From: an uncultured Selenomonadaceae bacterium
Lineage (GTDB): Bacteria; Bacillota; Negativicutes; Selenomonadales; Selenomonadaceae
Direction of reading: 5' to 3'
Assembly (NCBI GenBank): GCA_902778455.1
Contig: CACYXR010000009.1
Location: 1-64,000 of the forward strand
Length of the DNA: 64,000 bases
This document shows positions 26,267 through 49,611 of the stretch, piece after piece. The first letter of the stretch is position 1. Each line of letters starts with the position of its first letter. The notes beneath the pieces were generated by a model. The model had not been told where the DNA came from. It was given only the letters and a program-made list of their open reading frames with translations, and made no database searches. Both the position numbers and the translations under genes were made by a program.

Positions 26267-27400
26267 TTAAGCCAAACAGGACATCAGCGCGTCGGACACT
26301 TTCGCCACAATTTCTTTCGTCATGTACGGATGCAACGGCAAACTCAATACCGTTTCGCAAAGTCGTTCCGTCACAGGGCAATCCGCTTTGGCGCTGTCCG
26401 TTCCCGCAAACGCCCCCTGCCCGTGCATCGGCCTCGGATAATACACCATCGTCGGAATACCCGCTTTTTTCATTTGCTCCTGCAGCTTCGCACGATCAAT
26501 CTTTTCCGGCAACTGCACTGTATATTGCGCCCAACTGCTAACAAAGCCGTCGGTAATTTCCGGCAGAACCAATTCCGTCCCCTTGAGCCGCTCCGTATAC
26601 CACGCCGCCGCCTGATTTACCGCATCCAATTCATTCTCACGAAACGCCTCGAACTTCGGCAAAAGGATTGCCGCCTGCAGCGTATCGAGACGGCTGTTCA
26701 CGCCAAGCCGTACGTTATTGTATTTATCCGATCCGCTTTTGCCATGCACACAAAGAGAGCGAATCAAGGCCGCCCACTCGTCGTTATCCGTGAAAATTGC
26801 GCCGCCGTCGCCATAGCACCCCAAAGGCTTCGCGGGGAAAAACGACGTCGTCCCGATATCGCCGAAAGAGCACGCGCGCTTTCCTCGAATCGCCCCACCA
26901 AAACCCTGCGCGCCGTCCTCCAAAAGCAAAAGCCCGTATTTCTCGCAAATCGGACGAATCGCATCATAGTCTGCCGGAAGCCCGAAAAGGTCGACCGTCA
27001 CCACCGCCCGCGGGCGGTACTTTTTTTCGTCCCGAACTTTGACAATCGCTTCTTCAAGCTTGACCGGGTCAATATTATAGGTATGCTCGTCCACATCTAC
27101 AAAGATCGGAGTCGCGCCGACACCAGCCGGACATTCGCCCGAGGCAAAGAACGTAAAGTCCGGCACAAACACCGCATCCCCTTCGCCGACGCCCCAAGCC
27201 ATCAAGGCAATGGTCAAAGCGTCCGTCCCGTTTCCGCAGGTAATGCAGTGGCGAACGCCGACATACTCCGCCAGCTTCCCCTCCAGCTCCGTCACCTGCG
27301 GCCCGGAAATAAAATGTGCCGAAGAAACGACTTCCGCAACGGAACGGTCGATGTCCGTCTTCAAAACCTCATACTGCTTTTGTAAGTCACGAAATTGCAT
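26267..27400 (-). CDS. DegT/DnrJ/EryC1/StrS aminotransferase, WbpE-like
   Basis: 377 residues from ATG 27400 (GGGAGG, 7 bases). A PLP sugar aminotransferase: the Schiff-base Lys is in TTSFFPAKPLGCYGDGGA, with GNGTDALTIAL, VPDFTFFA and EDGAQGFG cofactor contacts. The closest functional match by pattern is WbpE/WlbC, which aminates C3 of UDP-3-keto-GlcNAcA. The dehydrogenases, acetyltransferase and epimerase for the rest of that route are at 49-53 kb. It should act in the cytoplasm to make UDP-GlcNAc3NA. Confidence 0.88.
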   Translation of the reverse strand: MQFRDLQKQYEVLKTDIDRSVAEVVSSAHFISGPQVTELEGKLAEYVGVRHCITCGNGTDALTIALMAWGVGEGDAVFVPDFTFFASGECPAGVGATPIFVDVDEHTYNIDPVKLEEAIVKVRDEKKYRPRAVVTVDLFGLPADYDAIRPICEKYGLLLLEDGAQGFGGAIRGKRACSFGDIGTTSFFPAKPLGCYGDGGAIFTDNDEWAALIRSLCVHGKSGSDKYNNVRLGVNSRLDTLQAAILLPKFEAFRENELDAVNQAAAWYTERLKGTELVLPEITDGFVSSWAQYTVQLPEKIDRAKLQEQMKKAGIPTMVYYPRPMHGQGAFAGTDSAKADCPVTERLCETVLSLPLHPYMTKEIVAKVSDALMSCLA

Positions 27401-27459
27401 AACCAATCCTCCCTAAAAATAGTAAATCACCACCAGCGTACATCCCTTGATGATAATTG

Positions 27460-29379
27460 CTAAACGGCTTCCGCAGACTCTAACTTGCGACGGTATTCCC
27501 ACGCACGGTCATGAAATATCTGCTGCCAAAGCTCCAAACAGAAAAATCCCCAAAGATTTCGTGCAAAAGAGCCTTCTCCTTCCATCTTCGTCATCACTTT
27601 CTCATTATCAATAAATTGCCGTTGACGTGCCTGCTTCGTGGACAGCGTATCGCAAATGAAATCCCGAGCCTCGCCTTTCGCCCATACGGCGAAAGGCGTA
27701 GGAAATCCCATCTTGTCCGTGCGGTTCATCACACGCTCCGGCACATACTTGCTCATCGCCGAACGCAGGATATACTTCATTGTCCCGTTCTTAAATTTGA
27801 TGCTTGCGGGAATCGTCGCCACGAATTCTACCATCTCCCGATCCAGGAACGGAACGCGGGACTCCAGCCCATGCGCCATGCTCATCCTGTCTTCCACCTG
27901 CAAAAGCGCAGGCAGCAACGTCTTGAAATCAAAATGCGTCATACGGTCAAGATACGAACGCTTGTCGACATTTTCCGCAACAAACAATCGTTCATACGTC
28001 CGGTAAGGATCATACTCCGGCCAACCGTCGCGCCGAATGCAGTCTTCCATCGCAGGTGCACGATTAATCAACTGGAAATACCTCTTACTCGGCTCGTCAA
28101 ACAAGCCCTTGCTCCAAAAGCTCTTGAGCATCGGCTTGTAATTCCGCAAACTGGACAAGTTCGGGATAATCGACTCATAAGTGACTACATATGCTCCCGT
28201 CTGCTGCGTCCCTTCAATCGCGCCTTTAATGCACTGCTCGAAATACGCCACAAGATAACGCGTATAACCGCCGAAAATTTCATCTCCGCCCTGTCCGCCA
28301 AGCACCACTTTACGGTGCTTCGCAGCCAACATGGACACCATGTACTGTGAAAACGACCCTGGCCCCGCTACCGGTACATCCAAATGGTAAATCACATCGC
28401 CGATATGGTCGATAAAATCCTGCGAGGCAATATCCATCTCGTAAAGCGGAAATCCCTTTGCCCTAGCCACTTCCCTAGCATATTCACTCTCATCGTACTC
28501 CGGCCCAAGACTGAATTTTCCCGTAAAGCCTTCAAAACTGTCTCCCAAAAGCTCCCTCGCCAACGCCGATGTAATCGAGGAATCCACGCCGCCGCTGACA
28601 TAACCTCCCACCGGCACGTCACTTCGAACATGATACGTAAGCGAACGCCGGAAATGCGCCTCCAGTTCGTCGTGAAAATACTGCTCCGTATGATACAGGT
28701 CAGGACGATAATACACCTGCCAATAGCGCCGTTTACGAATCTCCCCTTCCGCCGATATCGTCAGACTATGCGCCGGTTCCAGTTCTCGTATCCCCTTGAA
28801 CAAGGTTTTTCCATCCATACAGAACTGGAATACGAGATAATCCTGAAACGCCTCCAAATCCGTTTCAATCGAAGGTAGAAAAGGTAGAAGCGCTTTCATC
28901 TCCGAAGCGAAAAGAAAAACGTCCCCGACCACGGCGTAATAAAAAGGCTTGATACCGAAATGATCCCGCGCGCAAAAAAGGCGTTGCTTCTTCTCGTCCC
29001 AAATGGCAAAGGCGAACATACCGGAAAAATGCTCCACACACGCCTCTCCCCATTTCTCGTAAGCATGAAGAATGACTTCCGTATCGCTGGTAGTTTGGAA
29101 ACTGCCGCCCAATTCCTGACGCAACTCTAAATAATTGTAAATCTCCCCATTGTAACATACCCAGTTTCCATGCCCATCCGTCATAGGCTGCTTCCCTGTC
29201 TCCAGATCGATGATACTGAGACGCCGGTGGGCAAAGCCAACATTTCCAGTCTCCCGCGTCCATATTCCCTCGCCGTCCGGCCCCCGATGCGCCTGGATTT
29301 CATTCATCATACCAAGCTTCCCCGCCAATGCTGGAATCCTATCACCTGTAAGGCTAATCATGCCCGCAATAGAACACAT
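27460..29379 (-). CDS. asparagine synthase (glutamine-hydrolysing)-like amidotransferase, first copy
   Basis: 639 residues beginning MCSIAGM, so Cys2 is the glutaminase nucleophile. The N-terminal Ntn domain has HRGPDGEG and HRRLSIIDL; the synthetase domain has the PP-loop YVSGGVDSS and LPALLQVEDRMSMAHGLESR. A second, divergent copy lies at 45967-47883. In polysaccharide loci such enzymes (WbpS-type) amidate uronic acid carboxyls rather than make asparagine; with the diacetamido-uronic acid genes here that role is inferred. Plain AsnB activity cannot be excluded. Confidence 0.9.
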   Translation of the reverse strand: MCSIAGMISLTGDRIPALAGKLGMMNEIQAHRGPDGEGIWTRETGNVGFAHRRLSIIDLETGKQPMTDGHGNWVCYNGEIYNYLELRQELGGSFQTTSDTEVILHAYEKWGEACVEHFSGMFAFAIWDEKKQRLFCARDHFGIKPFYYAVVGDVFLFASEMKALLPFLPSIETDLEAFQDYLVFQFCMDGKTLFKGIRELEPAHSLTISAEGEIRKRRYWQVYYRPDLYHTEQYFHDELEAHFRRSLTYHVRSDVPVGGYVSGGVDSSITSALARELLGDSFEGFTGKFSLGPEYDESEYAREVARAKGFPLYEMDIASQDFIDHIGDVIYHLDVPVAGPGSFSQYMVSMLAAKHRKVVLGGQGGDEIFGGYTRYLVAYFEQCIKGAIEGTQQTGAYVVTYESIIPNLSSLRNYKPMLKSFWSKGLFDEPSKRYFQLINRAPAMEDCIRRDGWPEYDPYRTYERLFVAENVDKRSYLDRMTHFDFKTLLPALLQVEDRMSMAHGLESRVPFLDREMVEFVATIPASIKFKNGTMKYILRSAMSKYVPERVMNRTDKMGFPTPFAVWAKGEARDFICDTLSTKQARQRQFIDNEKVMTKMEGEGSFARNLWGFFCLELWQQIFHDRAWEYRRKLESAEAV

Positions 29380-30204: not shown

Positions 30205-31587
30205 TCAATGATACTTTTCAAAACTTATTTCGTTTGAATTCCATATTTTATCTTCATACCAATGATTAATGTACTCTTCCCATTTATCAGCATATTCCTT
30301 AAATATCTCATCACCAGTATACTCATATATCTTTTTAAAGTAATCAATATGAGCATAATGATATGAATTATAGTACAAACCTCCAGCTCCAATATAATTA
30401 AACACACAAGGATTCCCGAAAACATACTCGTTAATCCATCTAATCGGTATTATTATTTCTCCCTCACCTTTTTCTACATCATATTTCCCTATGAGTGTAT
30501 ATTGGGGATTAATTCCATCTACCCATTTAGGAGATAATTCAGGAACGTAAGCATAAAATGAAATACTCCCTGTTTCATTTGAAAAATATTGAAGTGAAAT
30601 TGTATTTTCTTTAGGATATGATATTCTCGAGACCATTATATTTAATTTTAAACCATTTGCAATCAATTCATCGTCAAAAATATACGAATCATACCTTGTC
30701 GTTTCAGATGATTTCTTCCTCAGTATTTTTCTTTCACCGATATTGGGAATACTAACTATACAATCTCCAAATTTAATATCTGATACCGTTGTATTTATTT
30801 GAAAGCACATTGGTCCTGATAGCATATATCTTGATGTGTGAATCGATGGAATATCAAATAATTCTATATAATTTTTAATAGTATCAATTTGACAATTAAA
30901 CAAATACTCGCATTCATCTTTTCTTTTAAGATTCATCTCTCCATAATTACGTAAAGAAATTGCAATACACAATTCCCCGTTTAATACTAAATCCGGAACT
31001 TCAAAAGGATATTCGGAAATAAAAGAATTCCCTTCTACATTCCAAAAAACTCCCCCCTCATCAATCGGAATAGTTAGTGAATTGAAGCACTGATTAGATG
31101 CATTCAAATATTTTTCATTCAAAGTTATGCTGTATAATTTATAAAAAATTTCTGCATAACTCATTTGTGTCAGGCCAGAATACATCTCTTTATAAAATGC
31201 CGAATAATTCATAAATCCCTTAGGATAATAAAAGCATAGAGCATTTTTCCTTTTTCTCATCTTATTAATAGATGAATCAGCTACAATTATTGCTGCAGCT
31301 AAATAACTATCCTCTCCCGTTTTCTCATATTGGCCAATGTAATCTTTTATTACATAATAGCCATATAAAGGATGTGGCAATAAACTACCATCTTCTTCTA
31401 ATTTACACGGATAATAAGATTCATCGAATTTAATATGGTAAAGATAGTCACTTACATTAGTCAATTTTTCCGTAAATTTCGGCATATTGCTAACATCATT
31501 TAATACAGGTGATCTAAATTGAAAATATACAGCTCCCATACTGGTCAGCAAAATAGCCACTCCCACCAAAAAAAAATATCGTTTCAT
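30205..31587 (-). CDS. membrane-anchored D-glucuronyl C5-epimerase-like protein (copy 2)
   Basis: 460 residues. One N-terminal membrane anchor (about 4-22), then a mostly helical (alpha/alpha)-like domain. The C-terminus reads YHYAHIDYFKKIYEYTGDE followed by YADKWEEYINHW, close to the ending of D-glucuronyl/heparosan C5-epimerases, and VPDLVLNGEL resembles their helix-repeat motif. Members invert C5 of uronic acids within polymers. The anchor places it outside the cytoplasm, acting on exported chains. A nine-T tract at codons 4-7 (31568-31576) makes the start prone to slippage. Very AT-rich compared with flanks. Confidence 0.7.
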   Translation of the reverse strand: MKRYFFLVGVAILLTSMGAVYFQFRSPVLNDVSNMPKFTEKLTNVSDYLYHIKFDESYYPCKLEEDGSLLPHPLYGYYVIKDYIGQYEKTGEDSYLAAAIIVADSSINKMRKRKNALCFYYPKGFMNYSAFYKEMYSGLTQMSYAEIFYKLYSITLNEKYLNASNQCFNSLTIPIDEGGVFWNVEGNSFISEYPFEVPDLVLNGELCIAISLRNYGEMNLKRKDECEYLFNCQIDTIKNYIELFDIPSIHTSRYMLSGPMCFQINTTVSDIKFGDCIVSIPNIGERKILRKKSSETTRYDSYIFDDELIANGLKLNIMVSRISYPKENTISLQYFSNETGSISFYAYVPELSPKWVDGINPQYTLIGKYDVEKGEGEIIIPIRWINEYVFGNPCVFNYIGAGGLYYNSYHYAHIDYFKKIYEYTGDEIFKEYADKWEEYINHWYEDKIWNSNEISFEKYH

Positions 31588-31602
31588 GAAATCTCCTCAA
31601 TA

Positions 31603-32559
31603 TTACTGATACACGTTATAGTACGCTAAAGGCGGTAATTGTTGTGTTTCTGACTGAAAGCTGATTTGTACAGATTGCCCCGTGACTGCCTCGTCCAATT
31701 GGAATTCAATCGAATATGATTTCTTATGCAATCTACCAGATACTGTAACGATATTCCCTTGCGAATCCATAATGCGACATTCCGCTAAAAAAGGTTCGGA
31801 CAAACGCTCCTTGAATCCAACCTCTATCCGATAAAAATCCTCATCATTATGAAAAGTAGTCATAATAGAATTTTTTTCCAACGATTCATCTATCTTAATA
31901 GAGGAAATGGCCTCTAATGCAGTTTGAGGAAGATTCGCCGAAGACATAGCCATTGTCCAACGCAACAAATTCAAGTCGTATACGTTGCAAACATTTGTAT
32001 AACGAACAATTTGAACAACCTCCGACCAAAATCGATCCGTCAAATAGTACGAATCCTTATCCGAGGGTATTCCTCCTCGATAATCTGGCACATTCTCACA
32101 TGTCAGAAGATGGTCTAAATCGTTATGATAAAAAATACCATACGTAGGATCAAATACCCTTCTCCCTTCCTCTGTCTGCACTTCAACGACAGTATGGGAT
32201 GCCGCAGGATTGCCATAAGGAGACGTCCTCAAATCATAAGCAATTCCTTCAACGCCATGACGCAACAATTCTTTGCAAAGCAAATAAGCATACATTCCGC
32301 AATGTCCTTTACCAGCCGCTAAAATTTCCTTTTCTGTCGGATTACGCCCTTCAACACGAGGTCCCTCACCATAGTCCAGCATCTTATTCACCTTAAGGTT
32401 GATATGTTGGACTTCCTTAACAGACAGAACGCCTGACTGCCGTGGGGTATCTTGAAAAAATACATCTTGTCCATGAGGTATTCTTACAAACAAATATACT
32501 GACACACTAAGTACCACTATGAATAATATTAAGAGGGAAAAATTCCAACCTCGTTTCAT
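31603..32559 (-). CDS. membrane-anchored transglutaminase-like protein
   Basis: 318 residues. An N-terminal anchor (about 6-25), then a transglutaminase-like core: Cys87 in GKGHCGMYAYLL, His122 in SHTVVEV and Asp137 in FDPTYGIFYH form the Cys-His-Asp triad in the proper order. The last 80 residues are beta-rich. Bacterial members act as transamidases, peptidases or ligases on cell-surface substrates. It starts 15 bases before the end of... the epimerase gene start region, i.e. the two are adjacent in one operon with a 15-base gap. Substrate unknown; polysaccharide or an anchor protein is inferred from context. Confidence 0.8.
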   Translation of the reverse strand: MKRGWNFSLLILFIVVLSVSVYLFVRIPHGQDVFFQDTPRQSGVLSVKEVQHINLKVNKMLDYGEGPRVEGRNPTEKEILAAGKGHCGMYAYLLCKELLRHGVEGIAYDLRTSPYGNPAASHTVVEVQTEEGRRVFDPTYGIFYHNDLDHLLTCENVPDYRGGIPSDKDSYYLTDRFWSEVVQIVRYTNVCNVYDLNLLRWTMAMSSANLPQTALEAISSIKIDESLEKNSIMTTFHNDEDFYRIEVGFKERLSEPFLAECRIMDSQGNIVTVSGRLHKKSYSIEFQLDEAVTGQSVQISFQSETQQLPPLAYYNVYQ

Positions 32560-32623
32560 CTGTCACCATCTTCCTGCGTAATGAATTGCTTCTCATTTCA
32601 ACGTAAAGCTTGGAAATCAGATA

Positions 32624-34411
32624 TTACTCAATATTCATCTTATTGTTGCGGTTTCCAACAAAGGTGCGAAATAACAATCGCTCAAAAACAGAATGCTTAC
32701 TCGGCTCACGATAGCATTCGTCCATATAACTTTTGTAATCATCCGTCGTAGCTGTTCCTTGCTTGATTGCCTCAAAAAGTGATTTTCCATTTTCGGATTG
32801 CGTACATTGGAACGCCAGCCACGCATCAAAATCCTCCTCAGGAGTTATATCAACCGGCAGCTTTTTTTTATAATAATACGAAACAAACGTATCTTTATAA
32901 GCCTGATACCGTGTTTTCCCTTCTTCAATTTGATTGGCAAAAGTATCTGTCAACATCCCCATATCACTCAAAAACACTTTCCAATACTCTTGATCTCCAA
33001 TAAATTCCCCATCAATATAATATGTATTATGTTTTCCGAACCTAATTATCCCAACGAAATCAACATCAGAACAAAAAAACAAAAAGGTTGCTGATTGTGG
33101 AGAGCCAAAAACATAATAGATATGATTCTTGGCAGATACTTTGCACGACCACATATTGTAAAAATAGTTATTCCGAAAAAATCGATTCAGCCATGTCGCA
33201 TTAGATGGATAAACTACCAACGGTATTTGTATTTTATTGCACCCCTGTATCAGCCAAAACGAACTAAATCCCGCCACAACGTCCATATCACTGCTATAAC
33301 CCTCGCAAAAAAAAGACTGCGGGACTTCTTTTTGCCTCTCAAAAAGATAGGCAAGATCATAAGGATATTGCGGCACATATGGCGAGCTTCCTCTAAGTTG
33401 CATTCGAGGTACTTCCTTGGAAAACTGTTTTAGTAAATTTCCTGACAAATCCATTTCTAAAATCCTATTAGCAAAAGTATCCGCCACATAAATCTTGTCC
33501 TCAGCGCCAATTGCCGTATAAGGATAGCTAAAATTTGTCACATACGGTCCATTTGCGCCCAGTGCAGTCTCATATTTCAGTTTTTCATTCAAAACAGTAA
33601 GCCGCCCCGTATGAGCATCCGTGACAATCAGCTTCCCTTTGTACAATTCCAACGCCGTTGGCCACATGTAAGCATTGACGCCCCTGTTCGCGCAATGTCC
33701 CACACGCCTGATTTCATTGCCATCATAATCAAACTGTATAATCTCCCTTGTACTCAAGCTAGTACCGTAAACCGACGAATCACTGATTTCTACACCATGC
33801 GCTAAAGGTACCTCTTTACGCCATAACATATTACCTTTATCATCAAACAAGAACAAGCTGTTTCCATCATAATCCGCTACAGCGATTCGATTGCCCACTT
33901 CGTTCACCGCTACATTTTCCGGCGACGTCAAACCTTCAGCAACAATCATTTTTTCAACAAAAAAGGTTTCCGAATCTGTGATTCTTCCAACCAAAATATT
34001 ATGTCCATTATAGTTTGCAATATAAAGCAGATTTGTACGACGATCATAATATAATCCTGTCGGATTCCATTTCTTTTTATTGGCAAATGAAGCCGGGCCT
34101 CCCACCACTTCGCACGTATTCATATTCTCCGGCTTAATTTCCTTTATTTCTCCCGTTTCTCTGCTGATCATTTCCAACTTATCATATCTCGCCATCAGTA
34201 AAGCATCTTTACTATATTCTCCCAAAGATACACAATATGCTTTTTCTGTGGTGCGAACGTATCGAAAATCTTCCCCCACCGTAAGTGTCGTCAAATCTCC
34301 ATTCTTGTTTTGCGGAAAAACGTCGTCTCTTTCATCAAAATAATATTTGGATGCAATCCCTATACATACCAGCAAAACAACTATACCTGCAATATATAAG
34401 TACCGTTTCAT
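32624..34411 (-). CDS. membrane-anchored NHL-repeat beta-propeller protein
   Basis: 595 residues. An N-terminal anchor (MKRYLYIAGIVVLLVCIGIA) precedes repeated propeller blades over about residues 60-350: NLLYIANYNGHNILVGRI, NRIAVADYDGNSLFLFDDKG, GKLIVTDAHTGRLTVLN and DKIYVADTFANRILEMDLSG fit the NHL pattern. Residues 350-595 form a separate aromatic-rich domain I do not recognise. NHL propellers act as binding scaffolds or as lyases. It lies centrally in the epimerase/transglutaminase module, so a scaffold or polymer-binding role outside the cytoplasm is inferred. Confidence 0.75.
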   Translation of the reverse strand: MKRYLYIAGIVVLLVCIGIASKYYFDERDDVFPQNKNGDLTTLTVGEDFRYVRTTEKAYCVSLGEYSKDALLMARYDKLEMISRETGEIKEIKPENMNTCEVVGGPASFANKKKWNPTGLYYDRRTNLLYIANYNGHNILVGRITDSETFFVEKMIVAEGLTSPENVAVNEVGNRIAVADYDGNSLFLFDDKGNMLWRKEVPLAHGVEISDSSVYGTSLSTREIIQFDYDGNEIRRVGHCANRGVNAYMWPTALELYKGKLIVTDAHTGRLTVLNEKLKYETALGANGPYVTNFSYPYTAIGAEDKIYVADTFANRILEMDLSGNLLKQFSKEVPRMQLRGSSPYVPQYPYDLAYLFERQKEVPQSFFCEGYSSDMDVVAGFSSFWLIQGCNKIQIPLVVYPSNATWLNRFFRNNYFYNMWSCKVSAKNHIYYVFGSPQSATFLFFCSDVDFVGIIRFGKHNTYYIDGEFIGDQEYWKVFLSDMGMLTDTFANQIEEGKTRYQAYKDTFVSYYYKKKLPVDITPEEDFDAWLAFQCTQSENGKSLFEAIKQGTATTDDYKSYMDECYREPSKHSVFERLLFRTFVGNRNNKMNIE

Positions 34412-34493
34412 GAAACATCCTCTGCTCTATTGATATATGTTATGGAACACCATCGAAGTTACCTGTTCTGACGGACGCCGTACCTTCTTCCCC

Positions 34494-36143
34494 TCAATCT
34501 GTACGACGCAGTTCAAAACTGGAACATCTGACAAAACAAAATTCTGGTCCACGGTAGTCGTGTGTCAACAAAATCTTTGCCGTATCAGATGACGGCACAA
34601 AAGTAATCCGCCATTGCATAGAAGCAGGCTTTTCGTTAGCAAACTCGTGTTCTGCCCCCGACATTATTGACGCATCTGTAGATACAGCTTTCGCTAAAAA
34701 AGTTCCTGGACTATCTCCGTTGTAAGAATCCGCTGTAACGACAAAATCATATTTTTCCCCTTCCTCCAATCCGTTTAACGTCCATTCTTGCATATTATTT
34801 ACGCCCGCTGCCCCAATGTACTGGATTCCTTGGTACTTTGCAGAAAAATCCATTTCCGTCAAAGACGAACTTTTATCGGACGAGAATTTCATGGTCAACG
34901 GATAAATCAAAGGGTGCGTGGGACCAATCACTCCTTTGGGATTGGCGTCCTCATAAATCCGTGGTCCCAAGAAACCGTAAGAATTCCTCCTGTTCAAACG
35001 TTGCGGAGTCGTTACTACGCAGACCACATCCTGATTATCGCCCTGTCCCTCTGCTAATTCTGCCAAACTCAGCACATACGGATGCACTGTCTCTTCTGCT
35101 GAAGATGTCGTATAATATGACCCATATGTAGGGTCGTACAAATGCCACTGATCGTCGTAAAACACTTCACATACAGCATGACCATCATTCTCTGGATAAT
35201 TTCCCAATGTTATCAACCGCGTCTGAAAGCCTTCCACAAAAGCCAACGCGGCCATCATATTTGCAAAACTTCCACATCTTCCTATATATTCGTTTATTCC
35301 TGTTAAATCATCATTTTTCCCCAGTCCAAATTGAAACTCCGAAATATAATCCATAAACACCATCATTTTCTGATGATTACTTAGCGCACCTGAACCTTCC
35401 AATAAACTATCCGCCAATTTATAATAATTGCTACTTACAGGAACCCGCCAAACGGATAACGGATTTCGTGGATCTTTTCCATCGAACACTACAGGATTTT
35501 CTCCCATCGTTCGTGTAATTTGGTTTGCAAAAACCTGCTTTCCTTTGATATGCAAATAACGTAACTCCAAGCCTGTTTCATCCGATGCTTTGACTAGCAA
35601 ATATTTGCACAACAACGGCGCATCAAAAACTTTAATATGCGGCATAGAAAATGCCATTTCTTCATAATTCTCTGCCATCGATCTATTCGTGACTATTGCA
35701 GTCAAACTTCCTGTCGCCAACACACCTATTTCCGATACCCAATAAGGACCATGCAAAGCCAAGAGAAACCAATCATTCCCTTTCATCTGCAAAGTCTTTG
35801 TCGATTCACCGGATAAAAAACGTACAATGTCTTTTTCTTTCATGCTATCACTTGCAGCAACAAGCATCAACGAACATTTCTCTTCATCAACTTTTTTTTC
35901 TGCTTGACGCCATATTGTTTTAGGGACGTACTTCGCCCGTTCTTCCGAGGTAACCGCAAATATGAACTTGTTCGTCCCTTCAATCAGTTCATCGTTAAGA
36001 TTCACTTTGGGGGAAGACAACTTATATTCCACACGTTCGAGCGACTCCATCTCTATTTTATGCTCTCGAATTCCGCAACCATATACAACCATTGCAATAA
36101 TCAAACTAAAGAAAATTTGCAATGTTTTATACCTTTGTATCAT
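34494..36143 (-). CDS. transglutaminase-like lipoprotein (tandem paralogue 1)
   Basis: 549 residues. The lipobox VVYGC places a lipid on Cys23. Residues 30-250 are a paralogue-specific region. The transglutaminase core has Cys290 (YIGRCGSFAN), His322 (DGHAVCEVFY) and Asp337 (LYDPTYGSYY). From about 450 a beta-sandwich follows (EWTLNGLEEGEKYDFVV ... CSSFELRR) like carbohydrate-binding or fibronectin-type modules. It is about two-thirds identical along its length to the next upstream gene, 8 bases away. Surface-exposed enzyme; probable cross-linking or attachment role. Confidence 0.8.
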   Translation of the reverse strand: MIQRYKTLQIFFSLIIAMVVYGCGIREHKIEMESLERVEYKLSSPKVNLNDELIEGTNKFIFAVTSEERAKYVPKTIWRQAEKKVDEEKCSLMLVAASDSMKEKDIVRFLSGESTKTLQMKGNDWFLLALHGPYWVSEIGVLATGSLTAIVTNRSMAENYEEMAFSMPHIKVFDAPLLCKYLLVKASDETGLELRYLHIKGKQVFANQITRTMGENPVVFDGKDPRNPLSVWRVPVSSNYYKLADSLLEGSGALSNHQKMMVFMDYISEFQFGLGKNDDLTGINEYIGRCGSFANMMAALAFVEGFQTRLITLGNYPENDGHAVCEVFYDDQWHLYDPTYGSYYTTSSAEETVHPYVLSLAELAEGQGDNQDVVCVVTTPQRLNRRNSYGFLGPRIYEDANPKGVIGPTHPLIYPLTMKFSSDKSSSLTEMDFSAKYQGIQYIGAAGVNNMQEWTLNGLEEGEKYDFVVTADSYNGDSPGTFLAKAVSTDASIMSGAEHEFANEKPASMQWRITFVPSSDTAKILLTHDYRGPEFCFVRCSSFELRRTD

Positions 36144-36151
36144 CTTTCCCC

Positions 36152-37783
36152 CTAATCCACACGCCGCAACTCAAAACCAGAAAACCTGACAAAACAAAAA
36201 TCTGGTCCTCGGTAGTCATGTGTCAATAAAACATCCGCCGTATCGGATGACGGGATAAAAGTAATCCGCCATTGCATAGAAGCAGGTTCTCCATTATCAA
36301 AGTGGTGTTCAGTTCCAAACAATATGGATGCATTTTTAGACATTGCTTTTGCTATAAATTTTCCGGGACGATCTCCATTATACGATTCCGCCGTAACCAC
36401 AAAATCATATCTTTCCCCTTCCTTCAATCCCTTCAACGTCCATTCATGCATATTATTTATTCCCGCTGCACCAATATATTCGATGCCTTGATACTTTGTA
36501 GAAAAGTCTTGCGCCGTCAGCGATGATCTTTCATCAGATGAGATTTCTAGAACCAAAGGATAAATCAAAGGATGATTGGGGCCAATCACGCCTTTAGGAT
36601 TTGCTGCTTCATAAATATGCGGCCCCAAGAAGCCATAAGAGTCTCTCCTTTCCAGCCGCTGCGGTACCGTCACCACACAGACCGCATCCGGCGTATTCCC
36701 TCCTCCCTGAGTCAATTCTTCAAATCCCAGCACATAAGGATGTTCCGCTTCCTCTGCCGACGACACGGTATAATATGCGCCATAAGTAGGATCATACAAA
36801 TGCCATGCGTTGTCGTAAAATACCTCACATACAGTATGTCCTTTATAAGTCGGATAATTTCCCATTGTTACTATTCTCGCCGGCATTTTTTGAGTCCAAG
36901 CAAGCGCAGATAATAAATCACTATATTCACCACATGCGCCGATATACTCTTCAATTCCAACCTCGTTCGTTGACAAGCCAACATAAAAATCAGCAATATA
37001 ATCCATGAACACCATCATTTTTTGGTGATTGCTAAGCGTACCTGAACCTTCCAATAATTTCTCCGCCAAATTGTAATAATTACGTCTTAAAGGAAAACGC
37101 CAAACATTTAATGGATTTTTGGGATCTTTCTCATCAAGCACAACAGGATTTTCTCCCATCGTTCGCGCAATCTGGCTCGCAAAAACCGTCTTGCCTTTTG
37201 TATGTAAATAACGTAATTCCACACCTGTTTCATCCGACGCTTTGACAAGCAGATACTTACACAACAACGGCGCATCAAAAGCCTTAACTTGAGGCACGGA
37301 AAATTCCATTTCCTCGTAATGCTTAACCATCGACCTATCCGTAACCATAGCGGTCAAGTTGCCTTTCGCACAAATCCCTAATTCCGACAGCCAATATGGG
37401 ACATTTAGTGCCAAAAGAAACCAATCGTTTTTCCCCATCCGCAAAATCTTTGAATCACCAGACAAAAAACGTACAATATCCTTTTCGTTCAACCTTTCAC
37501 TTGCAGCAACAAACGTAAACGTGTTTTCCTCTTCATCAACATTTTTTTCTGCCTGACGCCATATTGTTTTGGGGACATACTTTGCCCGTTCTTCCGGCGT
37601 AACCGCAAATACGATTTCATTCGCCCCTTCAATTAGCGTCTCATCAATAATCATTTTCGAGGGAGATAGCTTGTATTCCACACGTGGAAGCGAATCCATC
37701 TCTTTTTTTTGCTCTGGCGTTCCGCAACCATATATAACCATTGCAATAATAAGGATAAAGAATACGATCCATCTTTTCCCCAC
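36152..37783 (-). CDS. transglutaminase-like lipoprotein (tandem paralogue 2)
   Basis: 543 residues from the GTG at 37783 (AGAGAGG upstream); a GTG 30 bases further up lacks a site. Lipobox VIYGC gives lipidated Cys20. The triad is Cys284 (YIGACGEYSD), His316 (KGHTVCEVFY) and Asp331 (LYDPTYGAYY), with the same C-terminal beta domain as its neighbour. The catalytic-loop residues differ (GACGEY against GRCGSF), hinting at different substrates. An eight-A tract just after the lipid anchor (37703-37710) is another slippage-prone site. Confidence 0.8.
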   Translation of the reverse strand: MGKRWIVFFILIIAMVIYGCGTPEQKKEMDSLPRVEYKLSPSKMIIDETLIEGANEIVFAVTPEERAKYVPKTIWRQAEKNVDEEENTFTFVAASERLNEKDIVRFLSGDSKILRMGKNDWFLLALNVPYWLSELGICAKGNLTAMVTDRSMVKHYEEMEFSVPQVKAFDAPLLCKYLLVKASDETGVELRYLHTKGKTVFASQIARTMGENPVVLDEKDPKNPLNVWRFPLRRNYYNLAEKLLEGSGTLSNHQKMMVFMDYIADFYVGLSTNEVGIEEYIGACGEYSDLLSALAWTQKMPARIVTMGNYPTYKGHTVCEVFYDNAWHLYDPTYGAYYTVSSAEEAEHPYVLGFEELTQGGGNTPDAVCVVTVPQRLERRDSYGFLGPHIYEAANPKGVIGPNHPLIYPLVLEISSDERSSLTAQDFSTKYQGIEYIGAAGINNMHEWTLKGLKEGERYDFVVTAESYNGDRPGKFIAKAMSKNASILFGTEHHFDNGEPASMQWRITFIPSSDTADVLLTHDYRGPDFCFVRFSGFELRRVD

Positions 37784-37924
37784 TTTTATCAATTCCTCTC
37801 TTGTACGGGGCACCTAATATGTTCACAGATAACAACGCCACTTCTTAGCTATCCCGTTCACCTGTTCCCAATATTCATAAAGTACATCTGACACTCGAAT
37901 CTTTTATTGCAGTCCACTTCATCT

Positions 37925-39364
37925 TTATTCATCCATTTTCACATCTCCCGATACAACATCTAACCCCATCTTAACTTTTGCTTTGTGAAAATATTCTTTT
38001 GATTTTTCTTCCCAGATTGCCAACTCTGATGTATCGTTAAACAGTTCCTCTAGATATTGCTTATGTTTTTCGGCGTAGGACATCCCCACTGGCCAGCCTA
38101 AATCCTGCGGACGTATCGGGACACTCCATTGCCGCCATTCACCACTACCAGTCAATGACAATACTCCGTCACGCATCGTCACAAACTCCTCATCGGGAGC
38201 AATAGATCGTTGCTCCATAACAATATCCCCCCTCATCTCATCTTTGTACTGAATCGTCATTTTTAGCCACTCTCGACGAAGGTTATTGTTCCATACGGAC
38301 GGCAACTTACAATAAAAATAAGTATTCGGCTTCGTATTGGCAGTATTGACATCCGGCTCCGGCGCAACCGCTACAAGTCGACGCACAGTATGTCCATCTA
38401 CTAAACTTCCCGCTTGCCATCCCACTCCCGCCAAATAATTACCGTTTGAAGCTTTCATATCACTTTGACCGCCAACATCGATGATTGCGCTTTGCCCACT
38501 AACAGGATCTTCCAACCGTATCTCATCTACGGCCAATTCTGGCAACTTTTCTCCATACGGATTGTTGAAACGGAAAAGCAACCCTGATTTTTGTGGATTT
38601 AAATCATAGCGTATCCAGTACCCCGTGTCGTAAAGTGGCATCCAATGAACCAAGCTTGCCACGCCGCGCCGGTACCAATCAAAAACCTCCTCGTCTCCGG
38701 AAGCATCGTAAAGGCGACGCAACGCAAGTAGTGCGCGCATGTGCCCATTCAAAATATGAGAGGGCTCTCCCTCCTTGCTGGGTATTTCTTCAAACCATAT
38801 ATCATCACCCGAAATAAAAAGCTGCCCGCCTTCTTCTATCGGCACAAAAAGCATTTCAGCGGCTTCTCGCGCCAAATTCAAAGCCCCCTCGTCACCCGTT
38901 TTTTCATACCAGCAAACCAGCGCCTCTATGCCGCAGGCCTGACCAAAAGCAGAATACCAAGGAGCCTGAATAGAAACGTCATTATATGTATTGTCAAAGC
39001 CATAACGCCACCCCTTCATTCCCGGTCCAACGCCTTCTGCATGTTCCTTGAGCCAGAGAACACAATTCGCCGCGTAATCCATAGAAATAACTACGTCAAA
39101 ATCATCAAAGCGGTCATCCCCCATATAAGCAAGCGCATATAAAGCTATCGCACTCGGATGTTCCACCTTTCCAACCCCCATAATATGCTCAACGGGAACA
39201 CCATTGTCAAAAAAAATTTCCGCCGTGGCAACCGGAGTTTGAGTGCTTGAGGGAGCCTCTTTATCTTCTACCTCTTTGACAGATACAGCCGCATTCTTCC
39301 ATTGATATAAAGAAAAGAGTGCGATTAACAGTAAGCATAACGTCGATATTTTTTTTTTGTTCAT
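37925..39364 (-). CDS. membrane-anchored D-glucuronyl C5-epimerase-like protein (copy 1)
   Basis: 479 residues. An N-terminal anchor (6-21) precedes the epimerase C-terminal-type domain: helices with ACGIEALVCWYEKTGDEGAL, SHILNGHMRALLALRRLYDASGDE (202-225) and YDTGYWIRYDL (245-255), the latter a hallmark of glucuronyl/heparosan C5-epimerases with the Tyr residues of the active site. A beta-rich insert follows (about 265-400). It should invert C5 of uronic residues in an exported polymer. Ten consecutive A residues right after the start codon (39349-39358) could switch the gene on and off. Confidence 0.8.
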   Translation of the reverse strand: MNKKKISTLCLLLIALFSLYQWKNAAVSVKEVEDKEAPSSTQTPVATAEIFFDNGVPVEHIMGVGKVEHPSAIALYALAYMGDDRFDDFDVVISMDYAANCVLWLKEHAEGVGPGMKGWRYGFDNTYNDVSIQAPWYSAFGQACGIEALVCWYEKTGDEGALNLAREAAEMLFVPIEEGGQLFISGDDIWFEEIPSKEGEPSHILNGHMRALLALRRLYDASGDEEVFDWYRRGVASLVHWMPLYDTGYWIRYDLNPQKSGLLFRFNNPYGEKLPELAVDEIRLEDPVSGQSAIIDVGGQSDMKASNGNYLAGVGWQAGSLVDGHTVRRLVAVAPEPDVNTANTKPNTYFYCKLPSVWNNNLRREWLKMTIQYKDEMRGDIVMEQRSIAPDEEFVTMRDGVLSLTGSGEWRQWSVPIRPQDLGWPVGMSYAEKHKQYLEELFNDTSELAIWEEKSKEYFHKAKVKMGLDVVSGDVKMDE

Positions 39365-39394: not shown

Positions 39395-41113
39395 TCATAA
39401 CCCCAGTTCATTCATCATATTCTCAAACAATTGCTTTTGCGTTTCAAAATTAAACAAATTCTGACATTGCTCATAGTTCGCCTCGAGTTCTGCCAACCGC
39501 TTCTCATCATGCAAAAGCTCTGCCATCATCTGCCCGAAAAGTACGGGATTCTTCAAATCCACGCCAACACCGACATGGTTTTCTCCTGCAACCATAGTGA
39601 TTTCCCGCATGGAAGAATCATAGAGGATTGGAAGCTTTGCTTCGAAATATTCCATCAGCTTATTCGGGACGGAATAGGAAAAGTATTCATCCACGACAGT
39701 ATAAGGCAAGACGCCAAGATCAGCATTAACCGTATAGCGTAAAAGGTCCCCCTGACTGACCCAGCCGACCATAACAAGCCGATCAAACCTTCCTTCTTCC
39801 TTGGCAATCCTCAAAAATTCTTCTTCAAAATCGCCACCGCCAACGACGGCAAGATAACAGTCCTCCGGCAAATATTTTGTGGCTCTGGCGAGATTTTCAA
39901 GATTCCGCAAGCTGGTCAAACTTCCTTGGAAAATCGCAATACGCGCATTCTCCGGAACGCCAAATTGCTTCCAGAAATCCTTTTCCCTTCCGATTCCGCT
40001 TTCCTGCAGGCTTAATCTTGAACTCATGCAGGAATATATAACCCGAAAATCCTTTTGATAGCAGGCAGACATATCCTGTGCCAAATATTTACCCACAGTA
40101 ATGCAGAGATCGCATTCCGGGTACAGTTCCGCTTCGGTCTTTTCAGATATTTCAATCCTTTTCTTCATCCCGCTATTCCAGAGCTGCTCCTGCTTATACC
40201 ACCATTCATGGCAATCCACAATCAATTTGCAGCCCGTCGTTCGCTTGAGCATGATTCCGATGGGAAGAGTAGGTAGATCGGCCACATATACTAAATCCGG
40301 CCTTTCATCTTTCAAATTCGACGTCACTTGCCGAAATATCGGAGAAAAATCGTAAACTTGAGTCCGAAATTCTGTCCAATCAAAAGTTTGCCCCCCTAAT
40401 TCTTCCGAACAAAGCTCGCTGTATAGCTTCGGGGTTCCCCGATAAAGTGAGGGCGGAGAATCATGGAAAGCCCAAACGCCGTTGTCGTTTGACTTGCAGT
40501 GGGCGGCAAGCATCTTCCTGCGGTTACCCCATAGATAGCCTACCGCTATGTCCCCATAGGATACATGACCACCATTTTCAATTTCGTCTGTCTTCGTTCG
40601 GGAAAGGACTTCCTCATACTCTCGGGCCAAAGCTGCCGTCGAGCGGTTAGGAATTACAGTCACAAGTTGTGTGCAGCCATCATATACCAAACACCGCTCC
40701 CCCTGTCGTATACCGGCGACATATCCCCATCTTCCCCCTGAAGACATCAATTCATACCCACCCTGACGCTGATCAACATCCAACAACTGCCCAAAAGACG
40801 CAGCATAGTATCCCCTTTGAGTATGATAGTTTTCCTGTGCGGAAATAATTCGCTCCAATAGATTACGCTCTGCACTTTGACACTCTGCAAGAGAAAGCCC
40901 GTACAGCTTCACTAGATTCCAATCCATCGGACGGACAACATATTCCGGGTCGCATTCACAGGTTAAATCCGTGTATACGGAAGGAAACAAACTTACCGAC
41001 CACCCCCTCTGTAACAGCACATCGGCAAAAAAGAATATGCGTCTGTCAATATATGCGTCATGAGTAATTAACCAAGCGACTCTTTTTTTCACTTCATCAT
41101 CCGCCTCTTGCAT
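39395..41113 (-). CDS. glycosyltransferase, GT4/GT-B fold
   Basis: About 572 residues from the ATG at 41113. A TTG at 41182 with GGAGG 8 bases upstream is an alternative start that would overlap the methyltransferase gene by 94 bases. The C-terminal Rossmann domain has RIAIFQGSLTSLRNLENLARA, AVVGGGDFEEEF, MVGWVSQGDLLRYTVNADLG and EYFEAKLPIL, the nucleotide-sugar binding region of family 4. The N-terminal part has KRVAWLITHDAYIDRRIFFFAD plus a 150-residue insert. Cytoplasmic, adding a sugar during chain assembly; donor unknown. Confidence 0.82.
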   Translation of the reverse strand: MQEADDEVKKRVAWLITHDAYIDRRIFFFADVLLQRGWSVSLFPSVYTDLTCECDPEYVVRPMDWNLVKLYGLSLAECQSAERNLLERIISAQENYHTQRGYYAASFGQLLDVDQRQGGYELMSSGGRWGYVAGIRQGERCLVYDGCTQLVTVIPNRSTAALAREYEEVLSRTKTDEIENGGHVSYGDIAVGYLWGNRRKMLAAHCKSNDNGVWAFHDSPPSLYRGTPKLYSELCSEELGGQTFDWTEFRTQVYDFSPIFRQVTSNLKDERPDLVYVADLPTLPIGIMLKRTTGCKLIVDCHEWWYKQEQLWNSGMKKRIEISEKTEAELYPECDLCITVGKYLAQDMSACYQKDFRVIYSCMSSRLSLQESGIGREKDFWKQFGVPENARIAIFQGSLTSLRNLENLARATKYLPEDCYLAVVGGGDFEEEFLRIAKEEGRFDRLVMVGWVSQGDLLRYTVNADLGVLPYTVVDEYFSYSVPNKLMEYFEAKLPILYDSSMREITMVAGENHVGVGVDLKNPVLFGQMMAELLHDEKRLAELEANYEQCQNLFNFETQKQLFENMMNELGL

Positions 41114-43218
41114 CTCATATAAAAGTTCTTTACGCCCAAAGAAATCAATAGATTGTATATCTTTTTGTGTCGTCGAACCCAATTCTCCGTCCTCCGGAAA
41201 AACGGAATCATTTTCCCAAAGAACAATCGAAAATTAGCCAGTCCATTTATTTTATATAATCCAATACGTTCTTCCGTCCGCGCAGATTCTTTTAGAAGTT
41301 CCTGCATACCTGACAATGGCATTACAGCTCTTATGCAAGCCTTTTTCAATATGTCCTGCGTACGTGCAGAAACCCCATTTGTCAATTCCAGCCAAGCCTG
41401 GGGGCAATGAGACAGCGACATCCCTTCGGGATTTGGAAGAATCAGACGATATTTTATATTTTGATCTTCAAAACATAAGAATCCGGAATCCTCCGCTTTA
41501 TAGCATTCATAGCAAACGTCTTTCCCCCCCAACAGCCTACAAGCAAAAAGTTTTAACTCCGACTCCTCAAAATATAACTTAAAAAACAACGGTTTCTTCT
41601 CTGCCTCCTGTGGCAGAGCCAAGCGATAACGTTTTTGTTTCTCGTTCCATTGCCACCTGGTAAAAGACTGTTTCTCGCCATCAGCCATAGACATAGACAT
41701 TCGCACAGTCCCCGTCTGCGCCAACGCTCCTTCAAACTCCACTTCCGAATAACATTCGGGAAGTGCAGGAAAAGTGACGCCAACCCATGCCTGTGATGCT
41801 TTGCTGTTTTTATGAAAGCAATAAGCGTCCGTATCCTTTTCCATAAGGCAATCGCCTGCATAAAGACCGGGCAGCAAATCTTGTCGGCTGTACGACGATT
41901 TCACATCCACGCCATCATGGAACGATAAAGCATTCCGTTTACGATGCTCAAAAAACGAAGCGCCATCAATTTCCGTTAGTTCAGTTTCCTCATCGGCCCT
42001 GCAAAACAATACACCAATTTCCGTATAGACTGGGAAAGGACATTCGACGTCAAAATCTGTCATCCAATCCAACTTTTTTCGGTGTTCCATTCCTTGGCGA
42101 ACGCTCAATACTCCGCACTGAGGACATGGCACATTTTCTACATCATAAATCTCCCATCCAAGTGTTTCGGCCAGTTTTGCTTCTATCAAACCATTGCGAT
42201 GAAAAAAAACGTCTCCAGTATAATTGACCAATACGGGCTTCCATTCGTCTGATACCAACGAACAAAGCCGATCCTGATCAAAAAAATGCTTATGATGATT
42301 GACATGCCAAACATGGCCACATTGCGGGCAGTATGCATATGCCAAGAGCGGGTCTTCCATGAACGGAACCTGCAAATAAATATACTTGCGACTGACACGT
42401 TCCATCTCCTTCATGCCCGCCTGAAGAACTTCCTTCGGCAAATGCTCGATTACATCGCTAGCCAGGACAAGATCCACGGAACGGTCGGGAAGCGGTACGT
42501 CCATAATGTCACCTACACAGCTTGGACGCGGGTTACCGGCCAAAATTGCTTCATCGATGTCCATTGCAAGCACTGCGTAATCCGACGGAATCAAACGGTC
42601 AATATAGCCGGGACCGGAACCAATATCAAAAATACTTTCCACATCATCCGGGATTGCCGCCATCAGGGATTTTGCCGCATTTTCAATATACGCCTCGTTG
42701 CCGGATTCCTGATGCGCTTTCAGATAATCTCCCGCCTCCTGCCGATTGATTTCATTGACAACGCTTTTCCCTGTCACATGAAATTCTTGCGGATATGGAT
42801 ACTTTTCCCTCCATTTGCACCAAAAGCCGGAAAACTTCTTTTCCGGCTCTCCCGCAGTATAAAACACGCTTTGGCGACACACTTCTTCCAAAATTTCTTC
42901 GACCGAAAAATCAGTGAATGTTTCTCCAACTCCGGTTTGCTCTTTCAGCCACGAAGCCATCTCCGTCAGGTGCAGCTTCAACGATTCCGTCAACGGAGCA
43001 TCCGCATCAAGATAGGCAAGCGCCTCCAACAGAGAATGTGTCGCGGCAACCGAATATGCCACTCCGCCTGAAGTACAGATTTTCTCTTCGTCGGCATGGC
43101 GAATCGCCAGCTCAAAATCCGCCTGCAAAGCAACTGCGCGCAAAAGATTCTTCGCTAAAGGACGTATTTTTCTTTTCGCAATGAGAATATTCAATATCAA
43201 GCCCATATTTCTCCTCAC
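41089..43218 (-). CDS. class I methyltransferase with zinc-binding CPQCG motifs, large
   Basis: 709 residues. The N-terminal 150 residues are helical. The methyltransferase domain (about 195-330) shows SIFDIGSGPGY and DLVLASDVIEHLP. Two CPQCG clusters follow, the first after AYAY and the second after VENVP, probably binding zinc. The C-terminal half is beta-rich and not recognised. It lies next to a Wzt exporter ATPase with an extended C-terminus; in ABC-exported O-antigens a terminal methyl group can stop chain growth and be read by Wzt, so a capping role is inferred. The stop overlaps the next gene. Confidence 0.78.
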   Translation of the reverse strand: MRRNMGLILNILIAKRKIRPLAKNLLRAVALQADFELAIRHADEEKICTSGGVAYSVAATHSLLEALAYLDADAPLTESLKLHLTEMASWLKEQTGVGETFTDFSVEEILEEVCRQSVFYTAGEPEKKFSGFWCKWREKYPYPQEFHVTGKSVVNEINRQEAGDYLKAHQESGNEAYIENAAKSLMAAIPDDVESIFDIGSGPGYIDRLIPSDYAVLAMDIDEAILAGNPRPSCVGDIMDVPLPDRSVDLVLASDVIEHLPKEVLQAGMKEMERVSRKYIYLQVPFMEDPLLAYAYCPQCGHVWHVNHHKHFFDQDRLCSLVSDEWKPVLVNYTGDVFFHRNGLIEAKLAETLGWEIYDVENVPCPQCGVLSVRQGMEHRKKLDWMTDFDVECPFPVYTEIGVLFCRADEETELTEIDGASFFEHRKRNALSFHDGVDVKSSYSRQDLLPGLYAGDCLMEKDTDAYCFHKNSKASQAWVGVTFPALPECYSEVEFEGALAQTGTVRMSMSMADGEKQSFTRWQWNEKQKRYRLALPQEAEKKPLFFKLYFEESELKLFACRLLGGKDVCYECYKAEDSGFLCFEDQNIKYRLILPNPEGMSLSHCPQAWLELTNGVSARTQDILKKACIRAVMPLSGMQELLKESARTEERIGLYKINGLANFRLFFGKMIPFFRRTENWVRRHKKIYNLLISLGVKNFYMRCKRRMMK

Positions 43219-45080: not shown

Positions 45081-45091
45081 TCCGTTTATCC

Positions 45092-45877
45092 TCACAATTC
45101 GTCATCAAAAAGTTGTTTCATCTTGGAAAAAAATACATATCCACCCCAGTAAACAATCAGTGAAAAAGCCGCCAATGCCCAAAAGACGTAACCCCTCGGG
45201 AAACATCCCTGCAACAGGCAATCGCGATACGCGGAAATGAAATAATACAAAGGGTTGAACAACAGGAGTAGCTTGATTTCACCGGAAACCATATCCGTCG
45301 TATACGCAATCGGACTCAGCATCATCAAAACCATGATTATTATAGTAATCACATTTTTCATATCTTCGATTATTACCTGCAACGACGATATAATCCATGC
45401 AATCCCAATACAGAACAATATCTGAAAAAACCAGATGGGGAAAACCAGCAATATCCACCATGACAAATGCCCGAATAATACCAATGCGACAATAAACAAC
45501 GCCATGCCGACTATCCCGGTGCATTGGCTGGCAAGGACTGCTTTTACAGGAATAATTTCTATCGGATAGAGCGTATTTTTGACCAATGCAGAATTTGCCG
45601 TCACCGATACGACACTGCTGGATAGGCTTTCACTAATGCCCAAAAAAGGAATCAACCCAGCAAATATCATCAAGATATATTCCGAAATGTCCATCCCCAA
45701 GCGAACACGAAAAATAAAGCCATACACAATCGAATATGTCGCCAATAACAGCGCAGGATATAAAATCAGCCAGGACAATCCTAAGACCGACCCTGCATAT
45801 CGTGAACGTATATCCGCCATCGTAGTGGCCCACAGCATTTTTCTGTGCTGCCATATTACAAGAACCGCTTGTTTCAC
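45092..45877 (-). CDS. wzm: polysaccharide ABC exporter permease (Wzm-like)
   Basis: 261 residues with six membrane helices of the ABC-2 type. The N-terminal interface helix (IRSRYAGSVLGLSWLILYP) is the classical Wzm/TagG/KpsM signature, and FNPLYYFISAYRDCLLQG near the end is also typical. It forms the channel for the undecaprenyl-linked or lipid-linked polymer with the Wzt ATPase. A 12-base spacing to wzt supports co-translation. Confidence 0.93.
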   Translation of the reverse strand: MKQAVLVIWQHRKMLWATTMADIRSRYAGSVLGLSWLILYPALLLATYSIVYGFIFRVRLGMDISEYILMIFAGLIPFLGISESLSSSVVSVTANSALVKNTLYPIEIIPVKAVLASQCTGIVGMALFIVALVLFGHLSWWILLVFPIWFFQILFCIGIAWIISSLQVIIEDMKNVITIIIMVLMMLSPIAYTTDMVSGEIKLLLLFNPLYYFISAYRDCLLQGCFPRGYVFWALAAFSLIVYWGGYVFFSKMKQLFDDEL

Positions 45878-49042: not shown

Positions 49043-49611
49043 TAATGCGCCTCTTCTTCGATTTTGTCTCCCTGCTTCACATATTGTTTCCCGCAATCGG
49101 GGCAAACCAGTTTTTCATTTAAGACTTGCCCGCATTCGCACACCCACCCAATCTGCTTTGCGGGGACGCCAGCCATCAGCGCGTGGGACGGCACGTTTTT
49201 CGCGACGACCGCCCCTGCGGCGATGGTCGCATATTCCCCAACGGTATGTCCGCAGACAATTGTTGCGTTCGCCCCTATGGTGGCATCGTGCTTCACGACG
49301 GTTTTTTTGTATCCCGCCGCGCCTTTCGGGTATCTCGCCCTCGGCGTCAGGTCGTTGGTGAATACGCAGGAGGGCCCGCAAAAGACATGATCCTCCAATA
49401 CCACGCCTTCATAGAGGGAAACGTTGTTCTGCACTTTTACGCCGTCGCCTACTATGACGTTGTTGCTTACGTTTACGTTCTGGCCGAAGGAGCACTTTTC
49501 TCCGATCCGAGCACCGGACTGGATATGGCAGAAATGCCAAATTTTTGTGTTTTCCCCGATTTCCACGTTTTCATCCACGAAGCTGCTGGGATGAACAAAA
49601 TATTTACTCAC
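49042..49611 (-). CDS. wbpD: UDP-2-acetamido-3-amino-2,3-dideoxy-glucuronate N-acetyltransferase, WbpD-like
   Basis: 189 residues of left-handed beta-helix built from hexapeptide repeats (IGENTKIWHFCHIQSGARIGEKC, FGQNVNVSNNVIVGDGV, ATIGANATIVCGHTVGEYATI). It matches WbpD/WlbB, which acetylates the 3-amino group from acetyl-CoA to give UDP-GlcNAc3NAcA. A C-terminal extra with CECG and CPDCG is a small zinc-ribbon. It overlaps both neighbours by a few bases (dehydrogenase upstream, glycosyltransferase downstream), a tight translational unit. Confidence 0.9.
   Translation of the reverse strand: MSKYFVHPSSFVDENVEIGENTKIWHFCHIQSGARIGEKCSFGQNVNVSNNVIVGDGVKVQNNVSLYEGVVLEDHVFCGPSCVFTNDLTPRARYPKGAAGYKKTVVKHDATIGANATIVCGHTVGEYATIAAGAVVAKNVPSHALMAGVPAKQIGWVCECGQVLNEKLVCPDCGKQYVKQGDKIEEEAH

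Follow-up and report, generated by a model that had tools for sequence, protein, structure and literature searches.

We have identified a six-gene module in the genome of an uncultured Selenomonadaceae bacterium that is predicted, with modest confidence, to edit an ATP-binding cassette (ABC)-exported polysaccharide outside the cytoplasm. The module occupies positions 30,205 to 39,364 of the window, the 64,000-nucleotide stretch of contig CACYXR010000009.1 (assembly GCA_902778455.1) that was analyzed, and encodes two C5-epimerases, three transglutaminase (TGase)-superfamily proteins and an NHL protein. The polymer would be amidated inside the cell, then deamidated by the TGases and epimerized at C5 outside it. 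The individual parts are of known kinds, and post-assembly editing of surface polysaccharides has been described before; the combination of epimerase, TGase and amidotransferase appears to be new.

The six genes are consecutive, co-directional open reading frames (ORFs) on the minus strand, in the transcription order epimerase, TGase, TGase, NHL protein, TGase, epimerase that a preliminary description of this DNA had given. Epi1 (37925..39364) is an anchored GlcE-type C5-epimerase matching PF06662 (C5-epim_C; E 1.5e-27). It is followed by TG1 (36152..37813) and TG2 (34494..36143), both lipoproteins of the TGase superfamily; TG1 has a lipobox, the catalytic triad and a Transglut_core match of 1.2e-3 (below cut-off), and TG2 has Cys290/His322/Asp337 and a match of 3.2e-5 (above cut-off). 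The NHL protein (32624..34411) is a beta-propeller (NHL Pfam E 2.9e-9) whose C-terminal part matches no assigned domain, TG3 (31603..32559) is a smaller anchored TGase-superfamily protein with the triad (Transglut_core 6.2e-3, below cut-off), and Epi2 (30205..31587) is a divergent anchored C5-epimerase (PF06662 E 3.3e-27). A membrane anchor or lipobox had been described for every one of them, and each has one: TG1 and TG2 carry a lipobox, and Epi1, the NHL protein, TG3 and Epi2 a hydrophobic N-terminal stretch, which cytoplasmic control genes lack. An NCBIfam search of the module returned no family for the epimerases or TGases. The module was also considered as a defense system, which was rejected since PADLOC gave no match.

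The two window epimerases score 96.8 and 95.7 bits against PF06662, for which the cut-off is 23.3. A search of solved structures with profile A5 was partly circular because A5 includes a GlcE fragment; phmmer with Epi1 alone as the query is the clean comparison and matches the human GlcE structures 6i01/6hzz at 1.7e-12. The catalytic residues of GlcE are E499, Y500, N510, Y560 and Y578 (PMC13308652). Alignment with the human enzyme places equivalents of E499, N510, D553, Y560 and Y578 in both Epi1 and Epi2, and those of E499, N510, Y560 and Y578 in all 14 epimerase domains aligned; the Y500 position is kept in Epi2 and is Ile in Epi1. Both proteins had been credited with the motifs YDTGYW and YH..H..TGD. 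This stands in part, as YDTGYW occurs in Epi1 and YH..H..TGD in Epi2, each protein showing one motif only, with the E499/N510/Y560/Y578 matches present in both. Both are best classed, by family and residues, as putative GlcE-type (PF06662) C5-epimerases predicted to invert C5 of a polymer uronic acid. Epi1 is 43-56% identical to the relatives' proteins described below and is the ortholog of their first epimerase domain. Epi2, which is 31% identical to a stand-alone Pseudomonas epimerase and has a G+C content of 30% (Epi1, 46%), may have a separate origin on the strength of that match and its low G+C.

The Cys290/His322/Asp337 triad is invariant in 10/10 TGase sequences, TG3 included, which upholds the Cys-His-Asp assignment of the preliminary description. 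TG2 scores 24.6 bits against Transglut_core (PF01841; cut-off 23), relatives of TG1/TG2 in Pseudomonas, Thauera and Fournierella (loci L025, L027 and L028) reach 31-34 bits, and a profile of the ten TGase sequences matches the TGase-like structure 3isr at 3.4e-5. TG1 and TG2 share 69% identity, and TG3 is 37% identical to a Fournierella protein (L025, 11654-12514). Foldseek on partial, low-confidence models of the TGase proteins gave top matches that are not TGases; lectin or carbohydrate-binding beta-sandwiches were found among other folds. With a weak F5/8C Pfam match in the fused relatives (two proteins examined), these suggest at low confidence that the TGase core of TG2 is flanked by an N-terminal F5/8C-like domain and a C-terminal carbohydrate-binding-like beta-sandwich. 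Such flanks would lend weak support to a glycan substrate, weak because the fold is generic.

Relatives of the module were sought in genome samples that were drawn rather than complete. A genome-wide scan with the three TGases found four close relatives, in Candidatus Fournierella, the Bacillota metagenome-assembled genome Ch109, Pseudomonas sp. B28(2017) and Thauera sp. Sel9, and a further two came from the 299 Pseudomonas genomes searched. The resulting seven TGase loci (the window, two Bacillota, three Pseudomonas and one Thauera) all carry two C5-epimerase domains, Wzm/Wzt, a methyltransferase, a glycosyltransferase, WbpI-type sugar genes and an ortholog of the amidotransferase AsnB2, and in 7/7 an adjacent or fused epimerase pair stands beside the TGase. 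The relatives' gene order is Wzm, Wzt, methyltransferase, glycosyltransferase, epimerase pair and TGase, with AsnB2 nearby; methyltransferase and glycosyltransferase form a single ORF in Ch109, and a second AsnB copy is present in Ch109 and Thauera as well as in the window. Fournierella and Ch109 have the two epimerase domains in one protein and the TGase in another. In Thauera and the three Pseudomonas, epimerase, epimerase and TGase form one ORF of 1399-1423 amino acids (aa), and in the two of these ORFs submitted to Pfam, C5-epim_C is matched over two stretches, Transglut_core is present and F5/8C scores weakly. The pair is split in the window, where Epi1 is the match of the first domain and Epi2 is the divergent epimerase.

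The co-occurrence of epimerase and TGase beside Wzm/Wzt that had been proposed is thus above chance, with seven loci out of seven and fusion in four. Because distant bacteria carry them as one fused protein, these two kinds of enzyme almost certainly work as one unit, and the fusions suggest a relay on a single chain. The NHL protein and TG3 are tied to this core by position only, because the NHL protein has no counterpart among the six related loci and TG3 has one in Fournierella only; solved NHL propellers match the window protein at 7.7e-9. Six loci with a C5-epimerase only (four Pseudomonas, two Bacillota) contain no TGase, Wzm or AsnB, and WbpI and WbpM homologs occur in 3/6 of them. The stand-alone C5-epimerases L059 8725-10401 and L060 8812-9822, from other Pseudomonas, have hydrophobic N-termini and lie in O-antigen-type loci with Wbp/WbpM genes but neither TGase nor Wzm; they are candidate enzymes for making L-gulo diacetamido-uronic acid at the level of the polymer.

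Fusion also bears on whether the TGase domains might instead be proteases or amidases with a part in protein trimming or in the regulation of assembly, the epimerases being independent of them. Caulobacter HvyA is a model for this, as a periplasmic TGase-like protein that needs its catalytic triad and restricts capsulation (PMC4241560), but fusion to two epimerase domains and the carbohydrate-binding-like flanks indicate a glycan substrate, and we consider such a role improbable.

The G+C content is 32-41% across 30-38 kb and ~58% in the flanks, Epi2 being lowest at 30%, and within the family PF06662 was found in 1/189 genomes and the TGase in 1/151. Low G+C together with this rarity points to horizontal acquisition of the module; on the same counts, a vertically inherited housekeeping module was rejected. 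It could be argued from the low G+C, the single PF06662 genome and the variability of Epi2, NHL and TG3 that unrelated glycan tailoring genes were merely gathered by horizontal transfer, as in O-antigen islands. This is very improbable given an epimerase-TGase unit in both Bacillota and proteobacteria, fused in four genomes, and the correlated divergence of its parts: when Epi, TG, AsnB2, Wzt, Wzm and WbpI are each compared pairwise across the seven loci, their identities correlate with r 0.76-0.98, as would be expected of a co-inherited cassette, although host relatedness accounts for part of this. Coincidence is contradicted for Epi1, TG and AsnB2 and is possible for NHL, TG3 and Epi2.

Wider surveys delimited the distribution. 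PF06662 exceeded its cut-off in 9/299 Bacillota genomes; once the window and Ch109 are set aside, the two highest-scoring matches are epimerase-only loci. An order-level survey around Thauera covered 349 genomes; the Thauera TGase reached 558 bits there, and no other match exceeded 39. A WbmE-like relative in that order was rejected as well: among 24 short loci that were annotated, a single one had a sugar gene like those of the window next to it, an initial transferase, and the few proteins inspected resembled generic TGases. Acidobacterial scan matches (L029-L034) were rejected as relatives, being mostly short TGase-core matches, with PF06662 absent in the five genomes L029-L033. A plasmid-borne origin was discarded since the fused protein had no match in 72,556 plasmid records.

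As the preliminary description held, the module lies inside an ABC-exported polysaccharide locus, with Wzm, Wzt and glycosyltransferases around it. The locus is transcribed from the minus strand in the order WbpM-like dehydratase, initial transferase, glycosyltransferase, WbpA, WbpI, WbpB and WbpD homologs, glycosyltransferase, AsnB1, Wzm, Wzt, methyltransferase, glycosyltransferase, the module, AsnB2, WbpE-like aminotransferase and ManC. A glycosyltransferase, the initial sugar transferase and the WbpM-like dehydratase are encoded at 53130..57005 (Glyco_transf_4, Bac_transf, Polysacc_synt_2), and the WbpD/WbpB/WbpI/WbpA-like genes lie at 49042..53125, assigned by Pfam and the nucleotide-sugar dehydrogenase family TIGR03026, with the same set in relatives. 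AsnB1 (45967..47883; Asn_synthase 3.7e-61) is a second AsnB-type amidotransferase. The Wzm permease (45092..45877; ABC2_membrane) and the Wzt ATPase (43215..45095; ABC_tran and Wzt_C), which has a C-terminal carbohydrate-recognition domain, are followed by the methyltransferase (41089..43218; Methyltransf_11), possibly chain-terminating, and the glycosyltransferase immediately upstream of Epi1 (39395..41182; Glycos_transf_1); both of the latter have relatives in 7/7 TGase loci. Beyond the module lie AsnB2 (27460..29379), an AsnB-type glutamine amidotransferase with an N-terminal Cys2 (Asn_synthase 8e-89, GATase_7, TIGR01536 above cut-off), and the WbpE-like sugar aminotransferase (26267..27406; DegT_DnrJ_EryC1 3.6e-103), relatives of which adjoin WbpD in other loci. 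The ~0.8 kb between Epi2 and AsnB2 (29380-30204) holds no ORF of at least 150 aa and is possibly the remnant of a lost gene.

From their Pfam classes and the recurrence of the same set in relatives, the WbpA/B/D/E/I homologs are predicted to make a 2,3-diacetamido-hexuronic acid sugar nucleotide (UDP-ManNAc3NAcA). With WbpA a UDP-sugar dehydrogenase acting alongside WbpB/D/E/I, the earlier proposal of a uronic-acid polymer holds as a prediction from gene content. The flanking amidotransferases and the Wbp-type pathway did not figure in that proposal, and the likely substrate is therefore narrower than "uronic acid". The host genome contains the lipid A gene LpxC, so the host probably makes lipid A; no match to the Pfam model of LptD was found in it. 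Both an O chain and a capsule are possible identities for the polymer.

C5 inversion of a D-manno form yields the L-gulo form. In the reading that we favor, the cytoplasm would make a 2,3-diacetamido-hexuronic acid polymer that AsnB, as its family suggests, would partly amidate at C6 to give uronamides, and the chain would be built, capped and then exported through Wzm/Wzt. On the outer side of the cytoplasmic membrane, the anchored TGases would attack the uronamides through a Cys thioester and most likely hydrolyze them to free uronates, and the GlcE-type epimerases would convert D-manno to L-gulo residues, with removal of the amide before or after C5 inversion. There are precedents for these steps. 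In Porphyromonas, WbpS turns a Wbp-pathway sugar into its uronamide (PMC7468200), and WbmE of Bordetella bronchiseptica, a TGase-superfamily enzyme of the periplasm, has been reported to remove the amide groups from O chains rich in uronamides (PMC3507681). As in the WbmE-type deamidase setting, the window combines a TGase outside the cytoplasm with Wzm/Wzt and an amidotransferase in one locus. Vibrio polysaccharide (VPS) contains an L-gulo amino-uronic acid amide for which C5 inversion is the proposed origin (PMC3901696).

Several points weigh against this editing scheme. The GlcE Y500 position is Ile or Val in 13/14 epimerase domains, and Epi2, being divergent and G+C-poor, may have a different substrate. 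TG1 and TG3 each score under the Transglut_core cut-off. For the TGase proteins, AlphaFold gave poor models, full-length and core-only alike (predicted local distance difference test scores of 53 and 63), and these were left out of the active-site claims. The Fournierella TGase ORFs, as called, have no N-terminal hydrophobic stretch, and the AsnB proteins may act on another carboxylate or amine. Function in all seven loci is predicted from their genes, and the likeness to WbmE is one of superfamily, cellular location and gene setting.

Sequence does not distinguish hydrolysis from amine transfer by the TGase. The AsnB-made amide could serve as an acyl donor from which the TGase passes the uronyl group to an amine (a protein lysine, a peptidoglycan amino group, an amino acid, a polyamine or a second chain); in this way the polymer would be attached, cross-linked or decorated without ATP outside the cell. 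The constant pairing of a cytoplasmic amide-maker with the TGase in seven loci fits such ligation, as do amide-linked uronic acids in surface polymers, namely GulNAcA-Gly in VPS and diacetamido-mannuronoyl-alanine (PMC3901696, PMC3210612), and the TGase domain of P. aeruginosa TgpA has been put through an amine-transfer assay (PMC3507681). However, hydrolysis is the simpler reaction, no conserved dedicated acceptor gene was seen in the loci, and WbmE, the sole functionally described O-polysaccharide TGase found, is reported to be a deamidase. We regard ligation as possible but unlikely, and the more specific proposal that the TGase joined to the C5-epimerases hands epimerized uronyl groups on to amines and so cross-links or anchors the polymer with no need of ATP, as doubtful. 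The preliminary description had the polymer covalently attached or cross-linked; with an amidotransferase at every TGase locus and the reported uronamide deamidation by WbmE, attachment or cross-linking is not supported as the default, though possible. If true, uronamide-driven ligation would be to polysaccharides what transglutamination is to proteins.

Elsewhere in the window, a UvrD-like helicase (60077-63088, minus strand) has an RNase_T-type exonuclease domain (aa 645-802) inside the span of its UvrD_C match (444-979), which looks like an insertion, and a RhuM-family protein (E 8.6e-109) is encoded at 11619-12641 on the minus strand.

A 2015 review names no bacterial post-polymerization epimerases other than AlgG/AlgE and one GlcE homolog, and describes as unknown which C5-epimerase forms the guluronic residue of VPS (PMC4432689). 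The epimerase-TGase unit with its amidotransferase and Wbp-type pathway offers concrete candidates for epimerization of this kind; it ties amidation inside the cell to editing outside and can be put to the test in strains of Pseudomonas and Thauera. In a search of mostly non-subscription literature, we found no account of an epimerase-TGase unit, fused or adjacent, that an amidotransferase constantly accompanies; the only three papers there that name both "C5-epimerase" and "transglutaminase" appear, by titles and abstracts, to deal with mammalian tissue. The nearest enzymes in profile and in the catalytic E/N/Y/Y are GlcE and bacterial PF06662 enzymes (human, Bermanella), and polymer-level action is likewise expected of the module, but its epimerases are duplicated and TGase-fused or -adjacent, with diacetamido-mannuronic acid or its amide, not glucuronic acid, as the predicted substrate. 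AlgG and AlgE belong to a different family than GlcE-type epimerases, and we know of no TGase partner for them. These alginate C5-epimerases resemble the module in its predicted chemistry, D-manno to L-gulo on the polymer (PMC4432689). Caulobacter HvyA, like the module TGases, is a periplasmic TGase-like protein with a role in capsulation, but it is a negative regulator of the BTLCP family for which the accessible part of the report gives no epimerase partner (PMC4241560). The Wbp/Vim linking sugar of Porphyromonas gingivalis is, as here, a Wbp-pathway diamino-uronic acid converted to a uronamide by an amidotransferase, WbpS; it differs in being amide-bonded to a protein C terminus, with PorU as the proposed sortase, and the accessible text mentions no C5-epimerase or TGase (PMC7468200). 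A further parallel is Bordetella, whose O antigen is a polymer of 2,3-diacetamido-2,3-dideoxy-L-galacturonic acid made with the short-chain dehydrogenases WbmF/WbmG/WbmH; the accessible text mentions no polymer C5-epimerase (PMC2279256). WbmE, like the window TGases, belongs to the TGase superfamily and is placed outside the cytoplasm, where it is reported to act on the O polysaccharide after assembly (PMC3507681); in the module, GlcE-type epimerases are fused or adjacent to such a TGase.

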